Virus record (IMG/VR): IMGVR_UViG_3300029990_000058
Location: 1 to 22,570 of that record
DNA length: 22,570 nucleotides
From: a virus
Strand: one strand, 5' to 3'
How positions within the stretch are numbered: the stretch's first letter is position 1; each line of letters begins with the position of its first letter. The notes beneath the pieces are model-generated. The model did no database searches. It was given only the letters and a program-made list of their open reading frames with translations, and was not told the origin of the DNA. Positions 2,642 through 8,694 of this stretch are shown here, piece by piece. The position numbers were made by a program, and so were the translations under genes.

Positions 2642-2671
2642 ATTATACACTGTGTTTTTTTCGCGAGCTAT
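2642..2671 (-). promoter_or_regulatory. Repeated promoter, copy 1
   Basis: Minus strand: TATAAT at 2647-2642, an 18-base spacer containing CGCG, an A-run and ACACAG, and ATAGCT at the -35 position. The -35 hexamer is poor because it carries the TAG stop of the upstream gene (2668-2670). The CGCG and ACACAG blocks are perfectly kept. It drives the membrane protein at 2410-2607. Confidence 0.8.
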
Positions 2672-2946
2672 TTAGTCAACTCACATAACTCATAAGTCTT
2701 TTCAAAAATGTCAGGCTTGCATGGATAAAATTCTCCATTAACTCCTTGTATTATATAATCCATTGAATCTGCGCGCATCTCTCCTTCTAAAGTTTGGATA
2801 TATATAAATGGGTTCTCACCTCTAGCTTGTCCATTGTTTTTTAAAATCCACCAAACAACTTCTGTAGCATTACTATCACCTTGAGCATTATAAACTACAA
2901 ATTGTTTAGCATCTACTACTATTGGTTTTTTCCTATATTTGACCAT
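2668..2946 (-). CDS. Phage protein with PGDYG-like motif
   Basis: A 92-residue protein. It starts MVKYRKKPIVVDAKQF and ends with DYIIQGVNGEFYPCKPDIFEKTYE. This beginning and end are the signature of a very common phage family of unknown function, in which YRKKP-V-x-VEA is followed by an EG-x-M strand and then DWIIxGVxGExYPxKPDIFxxTYE (PGDYG-type). Here the usual G before DY is replaced by M (SMDYII). The middle carries VVWWILKNN and an IYIQTLEGEM strand. The ribosome binding site is GGGAGGGATTACA. Last gene of the group read from promoter copy 2; its stop codon lies inside promoter copy 1. Confidence 0.82.
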   Translation of the reverse strand: MVKYRKKPIVVDAKQFVVYNAQGDSNATEVVWWILKNNGQARGENPFIYIQTLEGEMRADSMDYIIQGVNGEFYPCKPDIFEKTYELCELTK

Positions 2947-2962
2947 TGTAATCCCTCCCTAT

Positions 2963-3235
2963 CTATCGATACAACCATTTATTAACTTCTTGATCAGTAA
3001 TCTTTCTAACAAGATCTCTTGATTTAAATGGATGCCACATAATATTATCACTATCGGCTACTACTATATCTATAACTCGATGAGATAATTCTCGTACAAC
3101 TTCTACATCATCAGTATATATACGTATTCGCTTTTCTATTTGAAACATCAAAGGAACTACGACTATTACAGCCGCAGTATGTCCCACTACATAACCAATT
3201 GCATATCCTATTTTTTCACCGATTTGTCTTAACAT
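2963..3235 (-). CDS. Small membrane-associated protein, 90 aa
   Basis: A 90-residue protein with a hydrophobic N-terminal half (about residues 9-31, IGYAIGYVVGHTAAVIVVVPLM) able to form one membrane helix. A basic/charged C-terminal domain follows (QIEKRIRIYTDDVEVVRELSHRVIDIVVADSDNIMWHPFK). The ATG follows GGAGGGATAACC. It lies between another small membrane protein and the PGDYG-like protein in the same transcription unit. No recognisable family. The helix-plus-cytosolic-domain design matches several neighbours. Confidence 0.68.
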   Translation of the reverse strand: MLRQIGEKIGYAIGYVVGHTAAVIVVVPLMFQIEKRIRIYTDDVEVVRELSHRVIDIVVADSDNIMWHPFKSRDLVRKITDQEVNKWLYR

Positions 3236-3258
3236 GGTTATCCCTCCTATTTCATTAG

Positions 3259-3564
3259 TTATACTTGAACTATTTTGTCATTAAACAATATAGAGACATA
3301 AGCATCTGGATCTGGTCCTTCTTTAAATATCGCAAATGGCTCACCATTCCCAGCATTCGCATCTAGGAATTTCTTAACATACTCTAGGTTTGCAGTACCC
3401 TTTGGTGTTTTCCAAGTGAGAACATTGAGTCCTTTAGCATTAACTAATCCTCTTGTACATATCCTTTTAGTTACAAAGGAGGTTGCTATAACCCCTCCAA
3501 TAACTAACCCGGTAACTACGATTTCCTTCTTGTGATCCTTACAGAATGTTTTAATGTTTTTCAT
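3259..3564 (-). CDS. Small membrane protein, MKNIK family copy 2
   Basis: A 101-residue protein beginning MKNIKTFCKDHKKEIVVTGLVIGGVIATSFV. A basic N-terminus is followed by one hydrophobic helix at about residues 14-30, then a soluble C-terminal domain (LNVLTWKTPKGTANLEYV, then FAIFKEGPDPDAYVSILFND). The first 30 residues parallel the protein at 2410-2607, including IGGV inside the helix, while the C-terminal parts are unrelated. The ATG at 3564 has an AAAGGGG site 8 bases upstream; an in-frame TTG at 3582 is part of that site. It follows the 258-residue membrane protein gene by 21 bases, so they are co-transcribed. Confidence 0.72.
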   Translation of the reverse strand: MKNIKTFCKDHKKEIVVTGLVIGGVIATSFVTKRICTRGLVNAKGLNVLTWKTPKGTANLEYVKKFLDANAGNGEPFAIFKEGPDPDAYVSILFNDKIVQV

Positions 3565-3585
3565 TTTTATTACCCCTTTCAAATT

Positions 3586-4362
3586 TTATTTCATAGTCCT
3601 TGGCATCATAGTAAAGTCAAGTACTAAACATGGAATATCATTCTCTGTCAACTGGGAACTGAACTCTGGCTCTATCAAACCATCATCTATATTCCATCCA
3701 ACCAGACCGCCTAATCCATTACTTGGTAAATCTAATTCGCTGTAAACATCGTTCACTGACATAAACATTTCGGTCATTAACTTCCTACTTGCCTCATTAA
3801 GTGATCTACGAATATGCTCAATATCACTTCTGAAATATCGTCCAGCTAAGACATCATAACATAAGGTGTCACCATGTCCAGTGTTGATTATCTCAGTATC
3901 TCTAACTGGATTCTTGAGTATACGGTCCTTAGCAATTCCATCTTTAATCTCTTGTCCTTTTTTTTCACCTATTATTTCTACTACTTTGTTCTTATACTCT
4001 TTTAGAGCATTCTCAGACAAAGAATATAAACCAATCAGTGCAGCATTCCTACGCTGGTTTACTGAGTTAGCAGACACAATTGCTGTAATGGTTACTGCAC
4101 CAGAGATAAAAGTAGGAATATAACATTTCCAAACCTCTTTAAACATCTCCCATTTAGTGAAGTCGCTAAACTCCTCATTGGCATCTAGTTCCTCTGCACG
4201 TCGTTCTTCTAAGATCTGCATAGCTTTAGGTGTAGCATCCACTGCTGCATATACAGTAGTAAATACTCCCAGCACTCCCATACCTGTTAATATGGCAGGT
4301 GAATTTTTAATGACCGTTCTTCTTGTTGTCAATGCTAATTGATTAATACTCTCTTTGTTCAT
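3586..4362 (-). CDS. Phage membrane protein, DUF6353-like
   Basis: A 258-residue protein. After a basic N-terminus (about 1-20, ending TRRTVIKN) come two hydrophobic segments: SPAILTGMGVLGVFTTVYAAVDATPKA (21-47) and YIPTFISGAVTITAIVSANSV (about 81-101). Between them is a charged loop (EERRAEELDANEEFSDFTKWE). The rest is a soluble domain with YDVLAGRYFRSDIEHIRRSLNEA. The SP-x-ILTG-x-GV...T..A..ATPKA start followed by a second helix is what I recall for the DUF6353 family of Clostridia phages; I have not verified this. The ribosome binding site is AAAGGGGATTATAA. It is first in its transcription unit, 100 bases below promoter copy 2, with a highly structured leader between, so leader-based control is plausible. 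Confidence 0.72.
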   Translation of the reverse strand: MNKESINQLALTTRRTVIKNSPAILTGMGVLGVFTTVYAAVDATPKAMQILEERRAEELDANEEFSDFTKWEMFKEVWKCYIPTFISGAVTITAIVSANSVNQRRNAALIGLYSLSENALKEYKNKVVEIIGEKKGQEIKDGIAKDRILKNPVRDTEIINTGHGDTLCYDVLAGRYFRSDIEHIRRSLNEASRKLMTEMFMSVNDVYSELDLPSNGLGGLVGWNIDDGLIEPEFSSQLTENDIPCLVLDFTMMPRTMK

Positions 4363-4379
4363 TTTTATAATCCCCTTTC

Positions 4380-4467
4380 AAAAATAAAAGTAAAAGAATA
4401 TGGTGACCTCCAGAGCAATCTACTCTAGTTTGATATACTATTTAAAGTACAAAGTCCCATATTCTTT
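4380..4467 (-). ncRNA. Structured leader or small RNA closed by a 14-bp stem
   Basis: The RNA predicted to start from promoter copy 2 folds almost completely. An 11-bp stem pairs 4457-4467 with 4393-4403 (AAAGAATATGG with CCATATTCTTT), extended by GAC/GTC past one bulged base. Inside are two hairpins: TTTGTACT with AGTA-CAAA (3-base bulge, loop TTAAAT) at 4453-4429, and CTAGAG with CTCTGG (7-base loop) at 4428-4410. The 3' side of the closing stem runs into a T-rich tract (TTTTACTTTTATTTTT), so it may end as a free small RNA of about 90 bases or act as a conditional terminator in the leader of the membrane protein gene at 3586-4362. I recognise no known riboswitch or RNA family. Confidence 0.6.
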
Positions 4468-4468
4468 C

Positions 4469-4498
4469 ATTATAACCTGTGTTTTTTTCGCGAGGCAA
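4469..4498 (-). promoter_or_regulatory. Repeated promoter, copy 2
   Basis: Minus strand TTGCCT, 18-base spacer with CGCG, A-run and AACACAG, then TATAAT at 4474-4469 followed by GAAAG. It is upstream of the structured leader and the four-gene unit 3586-2668. Confidence 0.85.
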
Positions 4499-4501
4499 AA
4501 G

Positions 4502-4552
4502 AAAAAGAATATGATTTAGCCTTTTTGCTACGACGTCCTATCTATCATATCC
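4502..4552 (-). ncRNA. Small structured RNA, about 50 bases, with own promoter
   Basis: Between promoter copies 3 and 2 lies no open frame but a foldable RNA. GGATATGAT (4552-4544) pairs over 9 bp with ATCATATTC (4515-4507), enclosing a TAGC/GCTA hairpin with loop AAAAAG (4530-4517) and a GACGTC palindrome. The 3' side of the long stem is followed by CTTTTTC, so the closing stem doubles as a Rho-independent terminator. The expected transcription start falls at or just before the first paired base, giving an RNA that is almost nothing but this fold. Not a known family to me. Confidence 0.58.
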
Positions 4553-4556
4553 TTTC

Positions 4557-4586
4557 ATTATATAGTGTGTAAACCCCGCGAGGCAA
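4557..4586 (-). promoter_or_regulatory. Repeated promoter, copy 3
   Basis: Minus strand TTGCCT, 18-base spacer beginning CGCGGGG and containing ACACAC, then TATAAT at 4562-4557 and GAAAG. It drives the small RNA at 4502-4552; the preceding tRNA-like gene ends in TTATTTTTGCC, so its U-tract merges with the -35. Confidence 0.82.
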
Positions 4587-4591
4587 AAATA

Positions 4592-4672
4592 AGAAGATGT
4601 GTCAGATTCGAACTGACGACCTCTGAGTAACTCTATCAGCGCTCTTACCTTACTGAGCTAACCATCTCCTTC
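4592..4672 (-). tRNA. Aberrant tRNA or tRNA-like RNA, identity undetermined
   Basis: The minus strand forms a near-complete cloverleaf. Acceptor GGAGATG (4669-4663) pairs with CATCTTC (4599-4593) and extends outward by two A-T pairs; D-arm GCTC/GAGC (4658-4655, 4644-4641); anticodon arm CTGAT/CTCAG; variable AGGTC; T-arm GTCAG-TTCGAAT-CTGAC (4617-4601), with the canonical TTCGAAT loop. Three features are odd. One extra G interrupts the acceptor at 4662. The anticodon loop reads AGAGTTA, so the invariant U33 is G, and the fifth anticodon-stem pair is T-C; the formal anticodon would be AGT. No CCA is encoded; CTTATTTTT follows. It is immediately below promoter copy 4, with the start of transcription predicted at about the first acceptor base. 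A degenerate tRNA or a tRNA mimic are both possible. Confidence 0.6.
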
Positions 4673-4673
4673 T

Positions 4674-4703
4674 ATTATAGGCTGTGTAATCCTTGCGAGC
4701 TAA
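4674..4703 (-). promoter_or_regulatory. Repeated promoter, copy 4
   Basis: Minus strand TTAGCT, 18-base spacer beginning CGCAAGG and containing TTACACAG, then TATAAT at 4679-4674 followed by AGAAG. The -35 hexamer carries the TAG stop of the MazZ-like gene. The predicted start is within a base or two of the tRNA-like acceptor 5' end. Confidence 0.8.
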
Positions 4704-5047
4704 AACTTGATATGTTCTAGATCCCAAATATGATCATTGCATTCTGGATGTCTACGCATCATTGTAATAGCCGCTGCTGCATTCCACATAACCGCAGCCA
4801 AATGATCTTCATCAGTCCAACCATTGCTAGCCTTGAGTGAATGACGAATCATACGATTAATGCAATCCTTAACACTAATCCCTTTTTCCCAATTCCTATC
4901 TTCATATTTTTTAGCACCTTCCTCATACCATTTAGCAAGTGCCTCCATGGCTTCGTACGGAAGTAAGTCAAATCTACCTCGCCCGTCATTTGATTCCCTC
5001 ATTGCTCCAAACTCTGTTTTTTCCATTTCCCCTTGACCTTTTAACAT
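4700..5047 (-). CDS. MazZ-like dATP/dGTP pyrophosphohydrolase domain protein
   Basis: A 115-residue protein matching the all-alpha MazG-superfamily domain first catalogued as DUF5664 and now named dATP/dGTP diphosphohydrolase. Motifs in order: GAMRESNDGRGRFDLLP (14-30), WYEEGAKKYEDRNWEKG (40-56), RMIRHSLK (65-72), and TDEDHLAAVMWNAAA (78-92). The EExxKK and DEDH acidic residues are the expected metal ligands. The characterised MazZ enzyme removes pyrophosphate from dATP and dGTP to support 2-aminoadenine genomes, but most phage relatives occur without that pathway, and no PurZ is in this window. The start is the ATG after AAAGGTGG. A terminator precedes it and I see no copy of the repeated promoter directly upstream, so it may rely on read-through. 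Confidence 0.82.
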   Translation of the reverse strand: MLKGQGEMEKTEFGAMRESNDGRGRFDLLPYEAMEALAKWYEEGAKKYEDRNWEKGISVKDCINRMIRHSLKASNGWTDEDHLAAVMWNAAAAITMMRRHPECNDHIWDLEHIKF

Positions 5048-5065
5048 ATTAATATACCACCTTTC

Positions 5066-5093
5066 AAAAATTAAAAAGTAAGCCTAAGCTTAC
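5066..5093 (-). terminator. Rho-independent terminator after the 55-aa gene
   Basis: Minus-strand 6-bp stem GTAAGC/GCTTAC with loop TTAG (5093-5078), followed by TTTTTAATTTTT. The stem starts at the TAA stop of the upstream gene. The core GC-TTAG-GC also appears in the terminators at 5314-5337 and 5895-5917. Confidence 0.72.
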
Positions 5094-5257
5094 CTTCTGT
5101 TAAGTATGTCTAAAAGTTTTATTTTTCTTTCAATAGCCTTCTCGATTGAGTTTGCTTTTGCATCGTCTAAGTTTCTCCATGTGATGACGTCTCTTTCGTC
5201 ACGCTGAATCTCTTTGACTAGCCTTTCAATCTCTTTCGTTAAAGTATTATCTTCCAT
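5090..5257 (-). CDS. Small coiled-coil protein, 55 aa
   Basis: A 55-residue, highly charged, entirely helical protein (KEIERLVKEIQRDERDVITW, then SIEKAIERKIKLLDIL) with heptad-like spacing of L, I and V, so probably a coiled coil. No Cys, no membrane segment. The start is the ATG at 5257 after AAAGGGGGATATT; an in-frame ATG at 5287 belongs to the promoter -10 box and should not be transcribed. It forms a single-gene unit bounded by promoter copy 5 and its own terminator. Function unknown. Confidence 0.72.
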   Translation of the reverse strand: MEDNTLTKEIERLVKEIQRDERDVITWRNLDDAKANSIEKAIERKIKLLDILNRR

Positions 5258-5285
5258 TATAATATCCCCCTTTATATTTACTTTC

Positions 5286-5315
5286 ATTATACACTATGTT
5301 TTTTATGCGAGGCAA
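5286..5315 (-). promoter_or_regulatory. Repeated promoter, copy 5
   Basis: Minus strand TTGCCT, 18-base spacer beginning CGCAT and containing AACATAG, then TATAAT at 5291-5286 and GAAAG. It drives the 55-residue coiled-coil gene. Confidence 0.83.
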
Positions 5316-5337
5316 AAGAAGAAGCCTAAGCCTCCTC
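5314..5337 (-). terminator. Rho-independent terminator overlapping next promoter
   Basis: Minus-strand 8-bp stem GAGGAGGC/GCTTCTTC (two G-T pairs), loop TTAG, followed by TTTTGCC. The stem includes the last codons and TAG stop of the 70-residue gene, and the short T-tract is the start of the -35 element of promoter copy 5. Confidence 0.66.
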
Positions 5338-5538
5338 AATATCAGATACCTCTACTTCAAAGTATTCTCCATCGATTTTAACTATGCTTCCATCTTTTAA
5401 ACCTTTTCTAATTTTGTGTTTATATACCACTTGATTAACGCCTTTTGCAGTTAGACCCACGAGTGCCATTGTTCCATTCCATACGACTGGTGCCAATATT
5501 ACACATGCTACTAACCTTACTAGTGTTTTATCATTCAT
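5326..5538 (-). CDS. Small membrane protein, 70 aa
   Basis: A 70-residue protein with one N-terminal membrane helix at about residues 8-28 (RLVACVILAPVVWNGTMALVG), a basic linker (VVYKHKIRKGLKDG) and an acidic C-terminal strand pair (VKIDGEYFEVEVSDIEEA). The basic linker after the helix suggests the C-terminus is cytoplasmic. The ribosome binding site is AGGGGG, 9 bases before the ATG. Single-gene unit between promoter copy 6 and the terminator formed by its own last codons. No recognisable family. Confidence 0.73.
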   Translation of the reverse strand: MNDKTLVRLVACVILAPVVWNGTMALVGLTAKGVNQVVYKHKIRKGLKDGSIVKIDGEYFEVEVSDIEEA

Positions 5539-5570
5539 GATTAAATCCCCCTAAAATTTATTTTGGTTTC

Positions 5571-5600
5571 ATTATAAACTGTGTTATTCCCGCGAGGCAA
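5571..5600 (-). promoter_or_regulatory. Repeated promoter, copy 6
   Basis: Minus strand TTGCCT, 18-base spacer beginning CGCGGG and containing AACACAG, then TATAAT at 5576-5571 followed by GAAAC. It drives the 70-residue membrane protein. Confidence 0.83.
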
Positions 5601-5628
5601 AAAGAAAGGCTGTCTTTTATAGACAACC
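5599..5628 (-). terminator. Rho-independent terminator overlapping next promoter
   Basis: Minus-strand 8-bp stem GGTTGTCT/AGACAGCC with a 5-base loop containing the TAA stop of the 73-residue gene, followed by TTTCTTTTT. The T-tract continues into the TTGCCT of promoter copy 6. The best formed of the terminators here together with 6188-6218. Confidence 0.8.
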
Positions 5629-5838
5629 CATCTCCTTCATTTTCGCTCTAAGGATCTTATTTTCAGTTTGAGCTTTCTTTGCTATGCTTATCAATTCTTT
5701 AGATTGGTCTAATGATCTTGATAATAATATTTCAGCTTCTGTATGCTGTTTATTTAACCTACATCTGTTAATTATATTACCAATTACCATTCCTCCAATT
5801 CCAACTAATCCTAAACATAATAATTCATTTCTCTCCAT
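5617..5838 (-). CDS. Small membrane protein with coiled-coil tail, 73 aa
   Basis: A 73-residue protein: hydrophobic, glycine-rich N-terminal helix at about residues 5-24 (ELLCLGLVGIGGMVIGNII), then an amphipathic, probably coiled-coil region (EAEILLSRSLDQSKELISIAKKAQTENKILRAKMKEM). The design, a membrane anchor with a cytoplasmic coiled coil, suggests oligomerisation at the membrane. The start is the ATG at 5838 after AAAGGGGATTATAA; the in-frame ATG at 5868 is part of the promoter. Single-gene unit between promoter copy 7 and its terminator. Family unknown. Confidence 0.74.
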   Translation of the reverse strand: MERNELLCLGLVGIGGMVIGNIINRCRLNKQHTEAEILLSRSLDQSKELISIAKKAQTENKILRAKMKEMGCL

Positions 5839-5866
5839 TTTATAATCCCCTTTCAAGTTTACTTTC

Positions 5867-5896
5867 ATTATACAATAAGTTATTTCTGCGAGGCAA
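5867..5896 (-). promoter_or_regulatory. Repeated promoter, copy 7
   Basis: Minus strand TTGCCT, 18-base spacer beginning CGCAGAAATAAC, then TATAAT at 5872-5867 and GAAAG. ACACAG is degraded to ACTTAT here, the most divergent spacer of the set. It drives the 73-residue membrane protein. Confidence 0.78.
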
Positions 5897-5917
5897 AAAG
5901 AAAGCCTAAGCTCTCTT
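5895..5917 (-). terminator. Rho-independent terminator overlapping next promoter
   Basis: Minus-strand 8-bp stem AAGAGAGC/GCTTTCTT (one G-T pair), loop TTAG, followed by TTTTT that continues into TTGCCT of promoter copy 7. The loop contains the TAG stop of the 40-residue gene. Confidence 0.72.
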
Positions 5918-6028
5918 TACTCGTTCGTTTATTTTTTTTCCTATTTTATACATGGCATAAATAGTCCATCCTGTAATAGTTATTACCCCTATGGCATTTC
6001 CCAATACTTCTCCTAAACTTTTATTCAT
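5906..6028 (-). CDS. Very small membrane protein, 40 aa
   Basis: A 40-residue protein starting MNKSLGEVLGNAIGVITITG and ending in a basic tail (YKIGKKINERVKRA). One membrane helix is predicted at about residues 7-28; the positive tail places the C-terminus in the cytoplasm. The start is secure: AAGGGGGA lies 7 bases before the ATG, and the gene has its own promoter (copy 8) and a terminator overlapping its stop. Holin-like or toxin-like behaviour is possible for such a peptide, but nothing in the sequence singles that out. Confidence 0.72.
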   Translation of the reverse strand: MNKSLGEVLGNAIGVITITGWTIYAMYKIGKKINERVKRA

Positions 6029-6061
6029 GATAAAATCCCCCTTAAAATAAATTTTACTTCT

Positions 6062-6091
6062 ATTATAGTATGTGTTAATTGTGCGAAAAAC
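6062..6091 (-). promoter_or_regulatory. Repeated promoter, copy 8
   Basis: Minus strand GTTTTT at the -35 position, 18-base spacer beginning CGCAC and containing TTAACACAT, then TATAAT at 6067-6062 followed by AGAAG. The -35 hexamer is replaced by the T-rich tail of the preceding small RNA, yet CGC and ACACA remain, which argues that those blocks matter more than the hexamer. Confidence 0.74.
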
Positions 6092-6092
6092 A

Positions 6093-6154
6093 AAAAAATA
6101 AGCTTGGGATTCGAACCCAAGTAAAGTCCCCCTCTTTCGAGTTACGACACTTTT
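6093..6154 (-). ncRNA. Small RNA with tRNA T-arm, about 60 bases
   Basis: Between promoter copies 9 and 8 there is no open frame. The predicted transcript has a D-arm-like hairpin CTC-GAAA-GAG preceded by TAA (6141-6132), a possible enclosing AAAGT/ACTTT pairing, and then a perfect T-arm, CTTGGG-TTCGAAT-CCCAAG (6121-6103), followed by CTTATTTTTTT. The T-loop sequence TTCGAAT is the tRNA consensus and equals that of the tRNA-like gene at 4592-4672. There is no room for an anticodon arm. The 5' end (AAAGAAAAG) can pair with CTTATTTTT with one mismatch, giving an acceptor-like stem. The T-arm followed by the T-tract is also a good terminator. A deleted tRNA or a minimal tRNA mimic are both possible. 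Confidence 0.55.
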
Positions 6155-6159
6155 CTTTC

Positions 6160-6189
6160 ATTATAGTATGTGTTTTTTTCGCGAGGCAA
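6160..6189 (-). promoter_or_regulatory. Repeated promoter, copy 9
   Basis: Minus strand TTGCCT, 18-base spacer with CGCG, A-run and AACACAT, then TATAAT at 6165-6160 and GAAAG. It drives the T-arm small RNA at 6093-6154. Confidence 0.83.
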
Positions 6190-6218
6190 AAAGAGAAGGA
6201 CATGTATTACACACGTCC
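6188..6218 (-). terminator. Rho-independent terminator overlapping next promoter
   Basis: Minus-strand 8-bp stem GGACGTGT/ACATGTCC (one G-T pair) with a 5-base loop, followed by TTCTCTTTTT that continues into TTGCCT of promoter copy 9. The TAA stop of the 96-residue gene is in the loop. Confidence 0.8.
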
Positions 6219-6497
6219 CTTTAAAACAAATCCAAGTGCTTTGCTGGTGATGATATGACCTTCCTCATACCCCACTATGATTGCAATTCCAATAAGATTA
6301 CCTAATACTATTGCAAGCGTGTTCGCGTCAATTCGTGCTGGGTCTTTATATATCGACTTTGCCTTTATCAACAACTCCAAGTTTGCTGCTAGTTTTTTGT
6401 ATTCCTCAGAACCTCTATCAGTGTGTGACATAATTTCAATTATCTCATCTACCTCCTTAGTAATTGGGTTTCTTTTATCTTTTCTGTATTTCTTCAT
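6207..6497 (-). CDS. Small protein with C-terminal membrane helix, 96 aa
   Basis: A 96-residue protein. The first two thirds are soluble and charged (basic MKKYRKDKRNPITKEVDEIIEIM, then helices EYKKLAANLELLIKAKSIY), and the last third is a membrane segment (about residues 63-80, NTLAIVLGNLIGIAIIVGYE) followed by a short tail ending GFVLKGRV. This is the reverse of its neighbours, which have N-terminal anchors. The ATG at 6497 follows AAAGGGGAGAAGG; an in-frame TTG at 6515 lies in that site. Single-gene unit with promoter copy 10 and a strong terminator. Family unknown. Confidence 0.73.
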   Translation of the reverse strand: MKKYRKDKRNPITKEVDEIIEIMSHTDRGSEEYKKLAANLELLIKAKSIYKDPARIDANTLAIVLGNLIGIAIIVGYEEGHIITSKALGFVLKGRV

Positions 6498-6532
6498 TTC
6501 CTTCTCCCCTTTCAAGAGTTTTTAATTCCTTC

Positions 6533-6562
6533 ATTATAACCTGTGTTTTATTCGCGATTATA
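6533..6562 (-). promoter_or_regulatory. Repeated promoter, copy 10
   Basis: Minus strand spacer beginning CGCGAAT and containing AACACAGGT, then TATAAT at 6538-6533 followed by GAAGG. The -35 position reads TATAAT because it holds the TAA stop of the holin-like gene. First copy in transcription order and the boundary between the lysis genes and the cassette region. Confidence 0.78.
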
Positions 6563-6773
6563 ATACCTCTTTAGGGGCATAAGCAGCGTCCGTCCAAGCC
6601 TCAGCTAATATGTACGCAATTATTGCTCCTCCTGCCATTATGATTGCTACAACCTGTTCGATAGAGCCAGGATTCATTCCTCTAGCTGTCATTAACAATG
6701 TTATAAATCCACAAACCATTGTCCAGAACTTCCTACTGGTCAACTTCCTTACTAATTCCGCATTTAAGTTCAT
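6558..6773 (-). CDS. Putative holin, 71 aa
   Basis: A 71-residue protein: MNLNAELVRKLTSRKFW, then a hydrophobic helix (TMVCGFITLLMTARG), a short turn (MNPGSIEQ) and a second helix (VVAIIMAGGAIIAYILAEAW) ending in DAAYAPKEVL. Two helices, the KLTSRKFW-x-x-x-x-GF start and the AYILAEAWxDA end are typical of small class II phage holins of Gram-positive phages. Holins oligomerise in the membrane to release the endolysin. I chose the ATG at 6773 (GGAG 11 bases upstream); an in-frame GTG at 6785 overlaps the ribosome binding site. It overlaps the upstream membrane protein gene by 41 bases, downstream of the endolysin. Confidence 0.8.
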   Translation of the reverse strand: MNLNAELVRKLTSRKFWTMVCGFITLLMTARGMNPGSIEQVVAIIMAGGAIIAYILAEAWTDAAYAPKEVL

Positions 6774-7002
6774 TATACACTTCACTCCTTTTTTCTTTAA
6801 CTACTTTAGTTTTCTTAATACTAGCCATTAACCATAACTCACCGGTAGTAAAGCCGAAGAACGCTGCTACCAATGCCACCGGTTCTGCTCCAGTAATTGC
6901 AAATACTCTTAGTACTGCTACTGTAAACCATATATTCATTATGATTATTAATAATACCATTACCTTAGAGAACTGTCCAGTTTCCTTTACTTCTTCGTCC
7001 AT
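6733..7002 (-). CDS. Two-helix membrane protein of the lysis cassette
   Basis: An 89-residue protein with a short acidic N-terminus (MDEEVKETGQF), a first helix at about residues 12-33 (SKVMVLLIIIMNIWFTVAVLRV), a second at about 37-61 (TGAEPVALVAAFFGFTTGELWLM) and a basic tail (SIKKTKVVKEKRSE). The segment AAFFGFTTGELWLMASIKK is familiar from small proteins next to phage endolysins. A second holin, antiholin or pinholin-like partner of the following gene is the likely role, inferred from context. The ATG follows TAGGAG, begins just after the endolysin stop, and the gene ends within the next one. Confidence 0.72.
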   Translation of the reverse strand: MDEEVKETGQFSKVMVLLIIIMNIWFTVAVLRVFAITGAEPVALVAAFFGFTTGELWLMASIKKTKVVKEKRSEVYNELKCGISKEVDQ

Positions 7003-7003
7003 A

Positions 7004-7957
7004 CTATGCTCCTATCAAAGCATTCCAGGTATCATATCCTACAATACCGTCAGCTTTAAAACCTTTACTTGTTTGGTAACTTCTTACATGAGCAGCAGTA
7101 TCAGTTCCAAATACACCATCTCTTGTAATGCCCATTCTCCACTGAATATACTTTGCTGCATTACGATTAACTACTCCAAAACGCATTAATGGTTTGAGTA
7201 AAATATCGTTCATGGCATTTAACGTTACATTACCCGGTATACCATCAACCGTTATGTTCACTATGTCCTGAAACTTCTTAATAGCTTGTTTGGTTCTAGC
7301 TCCTGGTACACCATCCTCAACCAATGACTGACCAGAATCATCAGTAATTTTAAGTCGATTAAGATTACGTTGGATTCTTAATACCATAGCATCCACATTA
7401 GAATTAACTGGTGCTACGGGTTTGGAGGGTGTATATACCATTGTTGCAATGCCAAGATAGTCAAGAATACCATCAACTATAGCCTGAGCAATAGCATCTA
7501 GGTTAGCGTTGTAGAATTTAACATCTTCTGCATTGTCATGAAAGAAACATTCAATAAGTCCGGCAATAGCGTGAGTTTGATTAAGAGCACCTAGATCAGT
7601 TCTAAGTGATAACCCTCTATCAGCTGAAGGTGTTAATGCTGAAACACGATTGTAAATGCAAGTTATAAACTTCTTTCCATTGTCCGATTTATAAAGTCCA
7701 GTACATCCTCGTCCTCCACCTGCATCCGAATGAATATCAAGATGAAGTGTAGCCCCTACTGCATTACTCTCAGCAATAGCCTGTGATAATGTCAATCCTT
7801 CTGTTAATACTACTTTCTTGAGAATACCTTTAGCATCTAGTTTACCTTTAACAACTTTGGCAACTCTCATCATATTGTCTGCTTCAGTTCCATATCCGTT
7901 AACACCAAGGTTGTCATGCTGTCTACTTGGATTGAGATATAAAATCTCATTAGTCAT
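7004..7957 (-). CDS. Endolysin: N-acetylmuramoyl-L-alanine amidase with two peptidoglycan-binding domains
   Basis: A 317-residue lysin. Residues 1-172 form a zinc-dependent Amidase_3 domain cutting the bond between N-acetylmuramic acid and L-alanine. Zinc ligands are visible as H14 (PSRQHDN), E26 (YGTEADN) and H76 (LHLDIHSDA), and the catalytic glutamate as E136 (GLIECFFHDN). A proline-rich linker (TPSKPVAPVN) leads to two peptidoglycan-binding repeats: 190-250 (IQRNLNRL...DGVPGARTKQAIKKFQ...DGIPG) and 260-315 (YIQWRMG...DGVFGTDTAAHVRSYQ...ADGIVGYDTWNALIG). No signal peptide, so export depends on the holin. It is preceded by GGGGGGAGAG and sits centrally in the lysis cassette. The catalytic set is complete, so it should be active. 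Confidence 0.95.
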   Translation of the reverse strand: MTNEILYLNPSRQHDNLGVNGYGTEADNMMRVAKVVKGKLDAKGILKKVVLTEGLTLSQAIAESNAVGATLHLDIHSDAGGGRGCTGLYKSDNGKKFITCIYNRVSALTPSADRGLSLRTDLGALNQTHAIAGLIECFFHDNAEDVKFYNANLDAIAQAIVDGILDYLGIATMVYTPSKPVAPVNSNVDAMVLRIQRNLNRLKITDDSGQSLVEDGVPGARTKQAIKKFQDIVNITVDGIPGNVTLNAMNDILLKPLMRFGVVNRNAAKYIQWRMGITRDGVFGTDTAAHVRSYQTSKGFKADGIVGYDTWNALIGA

Positions 7958-7975
7958 ATTACTCTCCCCCCTTTT

Positions 7976-8437
7976 TTAAAATACGTTTAATTTCATTATA
8001 ATTCCAAAAATGGCTGCCATGGCTGCTACTGATCCAAATATCTTTCCCCAGGTAATATCATTACCTTTTGCTGCGCCTTGTTGAGCATTAATAAATTCGG
8101 TTAAGGGCTTTAGCGCCTTCTCCATTTTATCAACGACAGCTGCCAGGTCTGCATTTGTAGCATATATACCGGATGCAGCAAGGTTTTTCTCCCGCATGAT
8201 ATCGGCCTGTTGATCTTTATAGACCTGACTTTCTCGTGCTAGACTTAAAGCTGCCAAGTCTGCTGTCTCCTTAATTTTCAGGGCCTTTTCCTTTTCGACA
8301 TTAACTTCAGCGTATCTACGGTCTCTTTCATCATTGAATCTTTGAGAGGCTGCCCTCATCGCTTCATTATGTATGATATATGCCTGGACCGACCAGATTT
8401 CGCTTTTATCTTTTAGATTTTCTACTATACCATCCAT
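7976..8437 (-). CDS. Coiled-coil protein with C-terminal membrane anchor (holin-associated)
   Basis: A 153-residue protein. Residues about 10-115 are almost entirely helical and charged, with IHNEAMRAASQRFNDERDRRYAEVNVEKEKALKIKETADLAAL-type composition, ending in a conserved-looking VVDKMEKALKPLTEFINAQQGAAKG. The last 25 residues (TWGKIFGSVAAMAAIFGIIMKLNVF) form one membrane helix. This long coiled coil plus C-terminal anchor recurs immediately upstream of endolysins in actinobacterial and Gram-positive phages and in XhlA-like proteins, and likely assists membrane disruption or localises the lysin. Clear start after CTAGGGGG. Family assignment is by architecture and phrase similarity only. 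Confidence 0.72.
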   Translation of the reverse strand: MDGIVENLKDKSEIWSVQAYIIHNEAMRAASQRFNDERDRRYAEVNVEKEKALKIKETADLAALSLARESQVYKDQQADIMREKNLAASGIYATNADLAAVVDKMEKALKPLTEFINAQQGAAKGNDITWGKIFGSVAAMAAIFGIIMKLNVF

Positions 8438-8463
8438 TTTTAACCCCCTAGTATGTATTTTGT

Positions 8464-8694
8464 CTAAGGTAGTTTGTGAATATTAATTAGATACCAGGCC
8501 TTAGACTTACCTAGTACGTTGTGATAATAATCATAGCTGCCATCATTAACTGGAGCCACGACAACTCGTTCAACATGATGTCTTGAAAACCAATGATGCC
8601 TGGGATGGTGATTATTTCTACCACAAGCCATAGTTACAGATGCGGGAAAGGCTAGTATAATTACCAATGTCAATATCATTATCATTTTTTTCAT
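8464..8694 (-). CDS. Exported histidine-rich peptide, 76 aa
   Basis: A 76-residue protein with a textbook Sec signal peptide: MKKMIMILTLVIILAFPASVTMA, cleavage likely after the A at about residue 23. The mature part begins CGRNNHHPRHHWFSRHHVERV, with seven histidines and one Cys in about 20 residues, followed by DGSYDYYHNVLGKSKAWYLINIHKL. The Cys right after the predicted cleavage site might be lipidated, but VTMAC lacks the Leu usual at -3 of a lipobox. The His cluster could bind zinc or other metals, or interact with anionic wall polymers. It sits between a Cys-rich gene and the holin-associated gene, with an AGGGGG site before the ATG. An exported protein in a lysis cassette might act on the wall or as a spanin-like factor; this is inference. 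Confidence 0.7.
   Translation of the reverse strand: MKKMIMILTLVIILAFPASVTMACGRNNHHPRHHWFSRHHVERVVVAPVNDGSYDYYHNVLGKSKAWYLINIHKLP

Follow-up and report, generated by a model that had tools for sequence, protein, structure and literature searches.

A three-block motif repeated in phage genomes is most likely the promoter of a phage-encoded single-chain RNA polymerase

The DNA analysed here, called the window, is the whole stretch of 22,570 nucleotides from the viral record IMGVR_UViG_3300029990_000058 of the IMG/VR database (positions 1 to 22,570). Its minus strand carries ten copies of a motif whose conserved unit is TCGC-N7-ACA-N5-TATAAT-GARA (N, any base; R, purine). The motif is real and widespread. 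Most likely it serves as promoter for an RNA polymerase that the phage itself encodes, a single-chain, two-barrel, DNA-dependent enzyme of protein family phrog_4291; we put the probability of this reading of the ten sites at about three in four. The conservation of the motif, its geometry, the lack of a -35 element, the position of the helices that close the RNA ends, the co-occurrence with the polymerase and the predicted fold of the latter were all computed.

The first-pass annotation, made from the letters of the window alone, had placed ten TATAAT boxes ending at 2642, 4469, 4557, 4674, 5286, 5571, 5867, 6062, 6160 and 6533 of the minus strand, and all ten positions proved exact. All ten sites read TCGC-N7-ACA-N5-TATAAT, with ACT for ACA in one; the CGC claimed for every copy is thus present 10 times out of 10, and indeed as TCGC each time. 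The ACACA block of the annotation is exact in eight sites, the exceptions being ACATA (5286) and ACTTA (5867); its position had to be corrected, since it starts 8 and ends 3 bases before TATAAT, not 5-6 bases before it. The hexamer in front of CGC is TTGCCT in six copies and ATAGCT, TTAGCT, GTTTTT or TATAAT in the remaining four, as described, and most copies do continue with GAAAG (6/10, the others having AGAAG twice, GAAAC once and GAAGG once). A relaxed scan for the motif found 10 matches in the whole window, exactly these ten sites, and 0 in the reversed window. The looser pattern CGC-N15-TATAAT occurs 11 times on the minus strand and its backwards version once; the eleventh match, at 2750-2773, lies inside a reading frame and has no ACA. 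Six sites contain the full TTGCCTCGC...TATAAT sequence, versus 0 in 100 shuffles.

The motif is found far beyond the window. The exact 15-base core, TTGCCTCGC-N15-TATAAT, was found in 73 IMG/VR stretches, giving 71 distinct sites. AC stands at the same place in 54 of them and is missing there from the other 17; most of these 54 AC sites also have a T-rich stretch upstream and GARA downstream. A 52-letter consensus of the AC sites matched 227 GenBank phage records at 1172 places (E up to 10): Arthrobacter 95, Gordonia 55, Streptomyces 54, Siphovirus 12, Rhodococcus 4, Curtobacterium 4, Microbacterium 2 and Caudovirus 1. A core pattern silent on the -35 position gave at least 119 stretches. When the fetched loci were pooled and near-identical sites counted once, 552 distinct sites in 165 loci were available. 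The relaxed scan returned 11 sites in G055, 15 in G024, 14 in phage ReqiPoco6 (30-78 kb), 8 in phage Circum (20-58 kb) and 2 in phage Moozy, with 0 in each reversed control, and the sites share one orientation within each genome scanned. G055, a record of 36.8 kb, has the ten sites of the window in the same order with one spacer base changed, plus one more. In relatives the CGC and ACA blocks are therefore conserved along with TATAAT, which was the annotation's own test of its proposal. A strict scan of the genome_contigs collection gave a single match, at 5301-5332 of an uncultured bacterium contig (L082), a record in which no polymerase was found.

The annotation had framed the sites as promoters with a -35 position and an 18-base spacer, while suspecting that CGC and ACACA matter more than the -35 hexamer. 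The suspicion was borne out and the frame was not. Among 338 sites from other contigs, fetched with the core pattern that is silent on the -35 position (from the set of at least 119 stretches), only six match TTGACA at 4 of 6 letters and none does better, the last letter of the hexamer being T by construction, so that 5/6 is the maximum possible. One base further upstream, 18 of the 338 reach 4/6. An extended -10 (TGn before TATAAT) is present in 4.7% of them. In ReqiPoco6 and Circum the hexamer varies freely and TCGC, ACA and TATAAT are mostly constant. Because no -35 element is found, an 18-base-spacer promoter of sigma-A type is not the best frame for these sites. The TTGCCT of the window probably arises where the end of the terminator before it, a T-run and then GCC, runs into TCGC.

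The RNA seems to start directly after TATAAT and not some 7 bases on. Of the 54 AC sites, collected without regard to the bases after TATAAT, 53, 54, 51 and 52 have a purine at positions 1, 2, 3 and 4 after the box; over positions 5-9 the share of purines, counted in about 552 sites, is only 39-46%. If sigma-A set the start, at about position 7, purines should abound there; their share at positions 7 and 8 was 43% (551 sites), so that the purine start expected about 7 bases on was not seen. A second line of evidence comes from the small RNAs that follow the site in a number of phages, and from helices with the 3' arm abutting a T-run and the 5' arm just after TATAAT. Helices of at least 8 pairs were found at 35 of 541 sites, and 30 of the 35 begin at base 1, 2 or 3, against a mean of 2.35, and at most 9 in 100 trials, when the tails were swapped between sites. 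The excess at bases 1-3 was also present for 7 pairs (43 versus 6.58 expected) and 9 pairs (18 versus 0.84).

Four of the ten window sites directly precede apparent small RNAs: a transfer RNA (tRNA) for threonine, a tRNA-like stretch and a pair of closed RNAs. The other six lie before small protein genes, and most of the 544 tested sites without a closing helix of at least 7 pairs likewise appear to precede protein genes. The features are the following:
6533-6557, minus strand: putative promoter 1, inferred start at 6532, upstream of the gene at 6207-6497
6207-6497, minus strand: 96-amino-acid protein, phrog_5818, with relatives in motif-bearing phages
6160-6184, minus strand: putative promoter 2, before a tRNA-like stretch
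6090-6159, minus strand: tRNA-like RNA that ends in a T-run and has a hairpin resembling a T-arm; ARAGORN did not call it, and its fold is no better than that of shuffles (z -0.59)
6062-6086, minus strand: putative promoter 3, upstream of a 40-amino-acid reading frame at 5906-6028
5867-5891, minus strand: putative promoter 4, with ACT for ACA, upstream of the gene at 5617-5838
5571-5595, minus strand: putative promoter 5, upstream of the gene at 5326-5538
5286-5310, minus strand: putative promoter 6, upstream of the gene at 5090-5257
4674-4698, minus strand: putative promoter 7, directly before tRNA-Thr
4592-4669, minus strand: tRNA-Thr (AGT) according to ARAGORN, its 5' end being the fifth base after TATAAT (fold z -1.5)
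4557-4581, minus strand: putative promoter 8, directly before RNA B
4503-4556, minus strand: RNA B, a 54-nucleotide closed structure with a 13-pair end helix from the first base after TATAAT
4469-4493, minus strand: putative promoter 9, directly before RNA C
4386-4468, minus strand: RNA C, a closed structure from the first base after TATAAT
3586-4362, minus strand: DUF6353 protein (phrog_2152), present lineage-wide, with no motif directly before the gene
2642-2666, minus strand: putative promoter 10, upstream of the gene at 2410-2607

The predicted fold of RNA B has -13.4 kcal/mol (z -3.86), and -5.5 kcal/mol (z -0.53) when the RNA is cut so as to begin at base 7; for RNA C the values are -30.2 (z -6.27) and -21.1 kcal/mol (z -3.85). 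In Rfam searches of the window and ten loci the small RNAs were not reported, one tRNA excepted; the tRNA-Thr of the window, whose anticodon AGT is unusual for bacteria, was not reported by the Rfam tRNA model at E up to 1. A tRNA-Ala with anticodon AGC likewise lies behind the same promoter motif in ReqiPoco6. One small RNA recurs in three loci (L132, L207 and L224); its closing helix begins at base 1, and it has a shared core, CAGTAATGT... CGCGTC ... TATAAG...GAGCTA...CCAGT, recognized by eye; it had no Rfam match in those loci and may be a new RNA family. A further observation in the window is a small protein at 4700-5047 that matches the N-terminal domain of dATP/dGTP diphosphohydrolase (PF18909).

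Which protein could read the motif? ReqiPoco6, an early motif match, encodes a protein annotated as RNA-dependent RNA polymerase. This protein, associated with the motif, is phrog_4291, the family of gp75 of Lactococcus phage 1706 and gp106 of Rhodococcus phage ReqiPoco6. Its relatives are found in 250 GenBank phage records (Arthrobacter 95, Gordonia 55, Streptomyces 54, Lactococcus 13, Siphovirus 12, Curtobacterium 7, Rhodococcus 4, Microbacterium 4, Caudovirus 2, Faecalibacterium 2 and two more names); no relative was found in plasmids. Compared by name tally only, the motif and polymerase counts are equal in five groups (Arthrobacter, Gordonia, Streptomyces, Siphovirus and Rhodococcus) and that of the polymerase is larger in the others. 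In IMG/VR, 30 of the 71 viral records with the core motif encode the polymerase. For records of at least 20 kb, it is present in 27 of 35 with AC in place versus 1 of 13 without (p 1.9e-5), this AC-only version of the test having been chosen after the result of another was seen, in which a purine rule put sites such as TATAATGACA among the controls (p 3.8e-4 at 20 kb). Among 50 further motif records, drawn from the at least 119 stretches, 30 have the polymerase, the proportion being 26/36 at 20 kb or more (one only as a broken fragment) and 20/21 at 40 kb or more. The polymerase gene was not seen in the window itself, which is a fragment; G055 encodes it at 5768-8560. In one locus (L122, 1522-4416) the polymerase frame is broken by one in-frame TAG, pointing to stop-codon recoding or to a broken gene. 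Two viral records of 86 and 57 kb (L011 and L076) have one motif-like site and no polymerase match, which may reflect chance or a different reader.

The predicted nature of phrog_4291 is that of a QDE-1-like two-barrel RNA polymerase with helix-turn-helix ends. The DFDGD sequence (within LSGADFDGD), which fits the DxDGD catalytic motif, is invariant in 16 of 16 aligned proteins. The C-terminal helix-turn-helix is above the Pfam cut-off; the N-terminal one was detected with PHROGs, the Pfam sigma-70 region 4 match there being below cut-off. An AlphaFold2 model of one member (predicted local distance difference test, pLDDT, 73.3; predicted template-modelling score, pTM, 0.46) aligns best with QDE-1 (Z 11.4, 369 residues), then with plant RDR2; the phage polymerase structures 8f72 (Phage P32 gp64), which we take to be the polymerase of P23-45, and 8f5m (P74 gp62) gave Z 10.1 over 354 residues and Z 9.8. 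All four alignments span roughly residues 214-734. A search of solved structures by sequence found no polymerase, and its weak matches were to designed repeats and to helix-turn-helix proteins. As deposited in GenBank, the 1706 and ReqiPoco6 records list the polymerase as a structural protein, which hints at a place in the virion.

The more distant relatives keep the geometry of the motif with altered letters. In the Lactococcus phages P1046 and P092, of the 1706 type, the polymerases are 36-39% identical to that of ReqiPoco6 (38.8% for P1046). P1046 showed no motif in scans with a position weight matrix and with word pairs. Only on reading its intergenic spaces was a repeat with the geometry of the motif seen; it is mostly TCAC-N7-ACA-N5-TATAGT-AGAA, T-runs lie upstream of it, and by eye there are RNAs that would start right after the box. 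P092, from the same host species, has ten copies with a T-rich block, mostly ACA-TACCC and TATAAT-GARA. The box is TATAGT in 10 of 11 plus-strand sites of P1046 and TATAAT in 10 of 10 of P092; in Curtobacterium phage JoyLin, TCGC goes with TATAGT in 4 of 4. Since TATAGT and TATAAT mix within some single contigs, we claim only a lineage preference: strict co-variation of the box letters with the polymerase lineage is unsupported beyond that, and TATAGT was dropped as proof against sigma-A, from whose consensus it still has 5 of 6 letters.

A variant of the motif lies directly before the nuclease-exonuclease-polymerase genes in four of eight genomes (G055, G024, ReqiPoco6 and Circum), followed by a predicted first transcribed stretch resembling AGAGGGATAG or GAGGGAGAG. 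P1046 and P092 have a site about 5.7 kb upstream of the polymerase gene; in P1046 this site precedes the genes for the annealing protein and the helicase. Only a degenerate form was seen in Moozy and JoyLin. The polymerase may thus read its own gene block, and the occurrence of this variant promoter in several phages suggests self-amplification. The sites are:
L230, 9300-9520, minus strand: putative variant promoter directly before the nuclease-exonuclease-polymerase genes
G024 (in L233), 29712: the same
L083, 43858: the same
L117, 34090-34510: the same
L119, 34158: site further upstream of these genes
L235, 34439: site further upstream of these genes

From the motif and the predicted protein, the following mechanism can be proposed. 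TCGC and ACA, which lie one turn of DNA from each other, would be read by the polymerase with the help of its two terminal helix-turn-helix domains; the DNA would open at the TATAAT box, another turn on, and the RNA would start at the purine directly after the box (TATAAT|GARA), with no need of a -35 element. The products of the window would be small proteins and small RNAs (the apparent tRNA, the tRNA-like RNA and the two closed RNAs), the closed RNAs running from the first transcribed base to the T-run terminator so that 5' trimming would not be needed. We infer that phrog_4291 itself, and not a partner, binds the motif; the polymerase may enter with the virion, and the genes of the window would presumably be early. 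With less assurance than for the identity of the promoter, we are somewhat inclined to favour the complete picture: a sigma-free stand-alone polymerase, of the two-barrel kind known from cells, would recognize a three-block promoter through helix-turn-helix arms of its own and begin the RNA where the TATA box ends. It would so make a large, undescribed class of phage small RNAs, with both ends fixed by initiation and termination alone, in phages whose hosts range from Actinobacteria to Lactococcus.

The annotation had proposed a dedicated activator, an anti-repressor/operator, or a phage-specific sigma or RNA polymerase co-factor acting on one regulon. That a phage-specific transcription factor acts on one set of genes we judge likely; the evidence favours the phage's own RNA polymerase over the other candidates. 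An ordinary sigma-A promoter we reject on account of the missing -35 element, the missing extended -10 and the position of the RNA end helices. A host polymerase carrying the main sigma factor on TATAAT, with a phage activator or sigma-like co-factor bound to TCGC and ACA, is a more serious contender, which we nevertheless consider improbable. TATAAT, present in 10 of 10 window sites, is the -10 consensus of sigma-A, GARA suits its discriminator, the TTGCCT of six window sites stands at 18-base spacing and scored 10/12 in a sigma-70 scan, and the tRNA of ReqiPoco6 is placed at base 8. The 338 sites, however, show no preference for a -35 or TGn, purines are not preferred at the expected sigma-A start, and the RNA end helices begin at base 1-3. 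Ten Moozy proteins, most of them shared in the lineage, were scanned and no sigma or DNA-binding domain was found; hence the polymerase is the best candidate reader of the motif, with a partner possible. Such a partner, for instance the 78-80-amino-acid protein encoded next to the polymerase gene, might recognize the promoter while the two-barrel polymerase makes the RNA; this division of labour, which is a special case of the polymerase reading, is also unlikely, if a little less so. The small protein is found in all five phages compared with Moozy (ReqiPoco6, Circum, P1046, G055 and G024), but it has no Pfam match, and helix-turn-helix matches are present at either end of the polymerase itself. 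That the sites would be operators, or a repeated packaging or recombination element, seems very improbable: repeated intergenic motifs with no assigned function are reported in actinophages, in the available part of a Microbacterium phage study (PMC7302621), but here the distance to the RNA end helices is fixed, the orientation is single within each genome scanned, terminator-like stretches stand just upstream of several sites and the sites are placed before genes and RNAs.

A number of observations weigh against assigning the sites to the phage polymerase. Every start was deduced from sequence, the box coincides with the host -10 consensus, and GARA is similar to the discriminator favoured by sigma-A. 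The tRNA starts are mixed: ARAGORN put them at bases 5, 1 and 2 in the window, L059 and L032, and at base 8 for the tRNA-Ala of ReqiPoco6 (though its helix reaches base 3), and Rfam put a second L032 tRNA at base 6; starts at 6 or 8 would nearly be allowed by a sigma-A start. A closing helix of at least 7 pairs is present at only 56 of 544 sites, RNA C stays well folded when cut to base 7, and the RNA at 6090-6159 and the tRNA-Thr fold little better than shuffles. The weakest GenBank motif matches (E 4, 21-36 letters) mean little alone. Eight of the 35 AC records of at least 20 kb (L011, L019, L020, L025, L039, L044, L059 and L076) and 10 of the 36 further ones lack the polymerase; many of the records without it may be fragments. 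Motif-bearing phages also share other proteins: common to Moozy, ReqiPoco6, Circum, G055, G024 and P1046 are the polymerase, its 78-80-amino-acid neighbour, two nucleases, a helicase, an annealing protein, a DNA polymerase, a DUF6353 protein and a 227-amino-acid protein, so that co-occurrence alone does not single out the polymerase. (The P1046 stretch examined had no match to the 179-amino-acid, 232-amino-acid and phrog_5818 proteins of this comparison.) As to structure, the polymerase model is only middling by its pLDDT and pTM; single-barrel p97 domains score as high as Z 9.9 over some 80 residues, level with the match to gp64; and Foldseek gave no match at E 1e-3, the best being RDR2 at E 2.7e-3. 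Lastly, hhalign found no similarity between phrog_4291 and YonO of phage SPbeta (probability 3.4; distant homologues can be missed in this way), and a 49-kb SPbeta stretch holding yonO has no copy of the motif.

The closest precedent is Thermus phage P23-45. According to the part of its description available to us (PMC10770324), it encodes two-barrel polymerases, gp96 (virion) and gp64 (non-virion), each with its own repeated promoter motif, and relatives without the virion polymerase are also without its motif. Here too a two-barrel polymerase would go with a motif of its own, and the predicted fold matches 8f72 and 8f5m. The differences are that phrog_4291 has helix-turn-helix matches and a gene of its own instead of being fused to the tape measure, that the hosts and the motif (TCGC/ACA/TATAAT) are others, and that the starts are predictions. 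YonO is likewise a single-chain phage polymerase with a DxDGD motif (DNDGD, versus DFDGD in phrog_4291), without detectable sequence similarity; in the portion of the YonO paper at hand (PMC5467207) it transcribes the late genes as a single operon, and the sequence of its promoter had yet to be determined. T7-type promoters, also short and compact, need a single protein to read them; their TATA-like box sits right at the start, and the first bases are rich in purines. The T7 polymerase, however, has an unrelated fold, and the promoter sequence differs. Host sigma-A promoters share the TATAAT box and differ by the -35 and extended -10 elements lacking here, and by the start, which in our sites would be too near the box. 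The intergenic motifs of Microbacterium phages and the SAS/ESAS elements are, in the same partial source (PMC7302621), repeated short motifs upstream of phage genes as well, but the sequences printed there do not resemble TCGC/ACA/TATAAT. A literature search confined to open-licence papers, seen in part, gave no published account of the motif, and what was available of the Rhodococcus, Arthrobacter, Gordonia, Microbacterium and Streptomyces phage papers among them does not mention it, which is weak evidence of novelty.

To our knowledge, promoter codes for single-chain two-barrel polymerases are few. A polymerase clade represented in 250 GenBank phage records now has a candidate one, and the system is carried by cultured phages of Arthrobacter, Gordonia, Streptomyces, Rhodococcus and Lactococcus. 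If the assignment is true, sequence alone would mark the regulon of such a polymerase, and the polymerase and promoter pair might serve as an orthogonal set in high-GC bacteria. The same putative switch would then be in use in hundreds of related viruses of very different bacteria.

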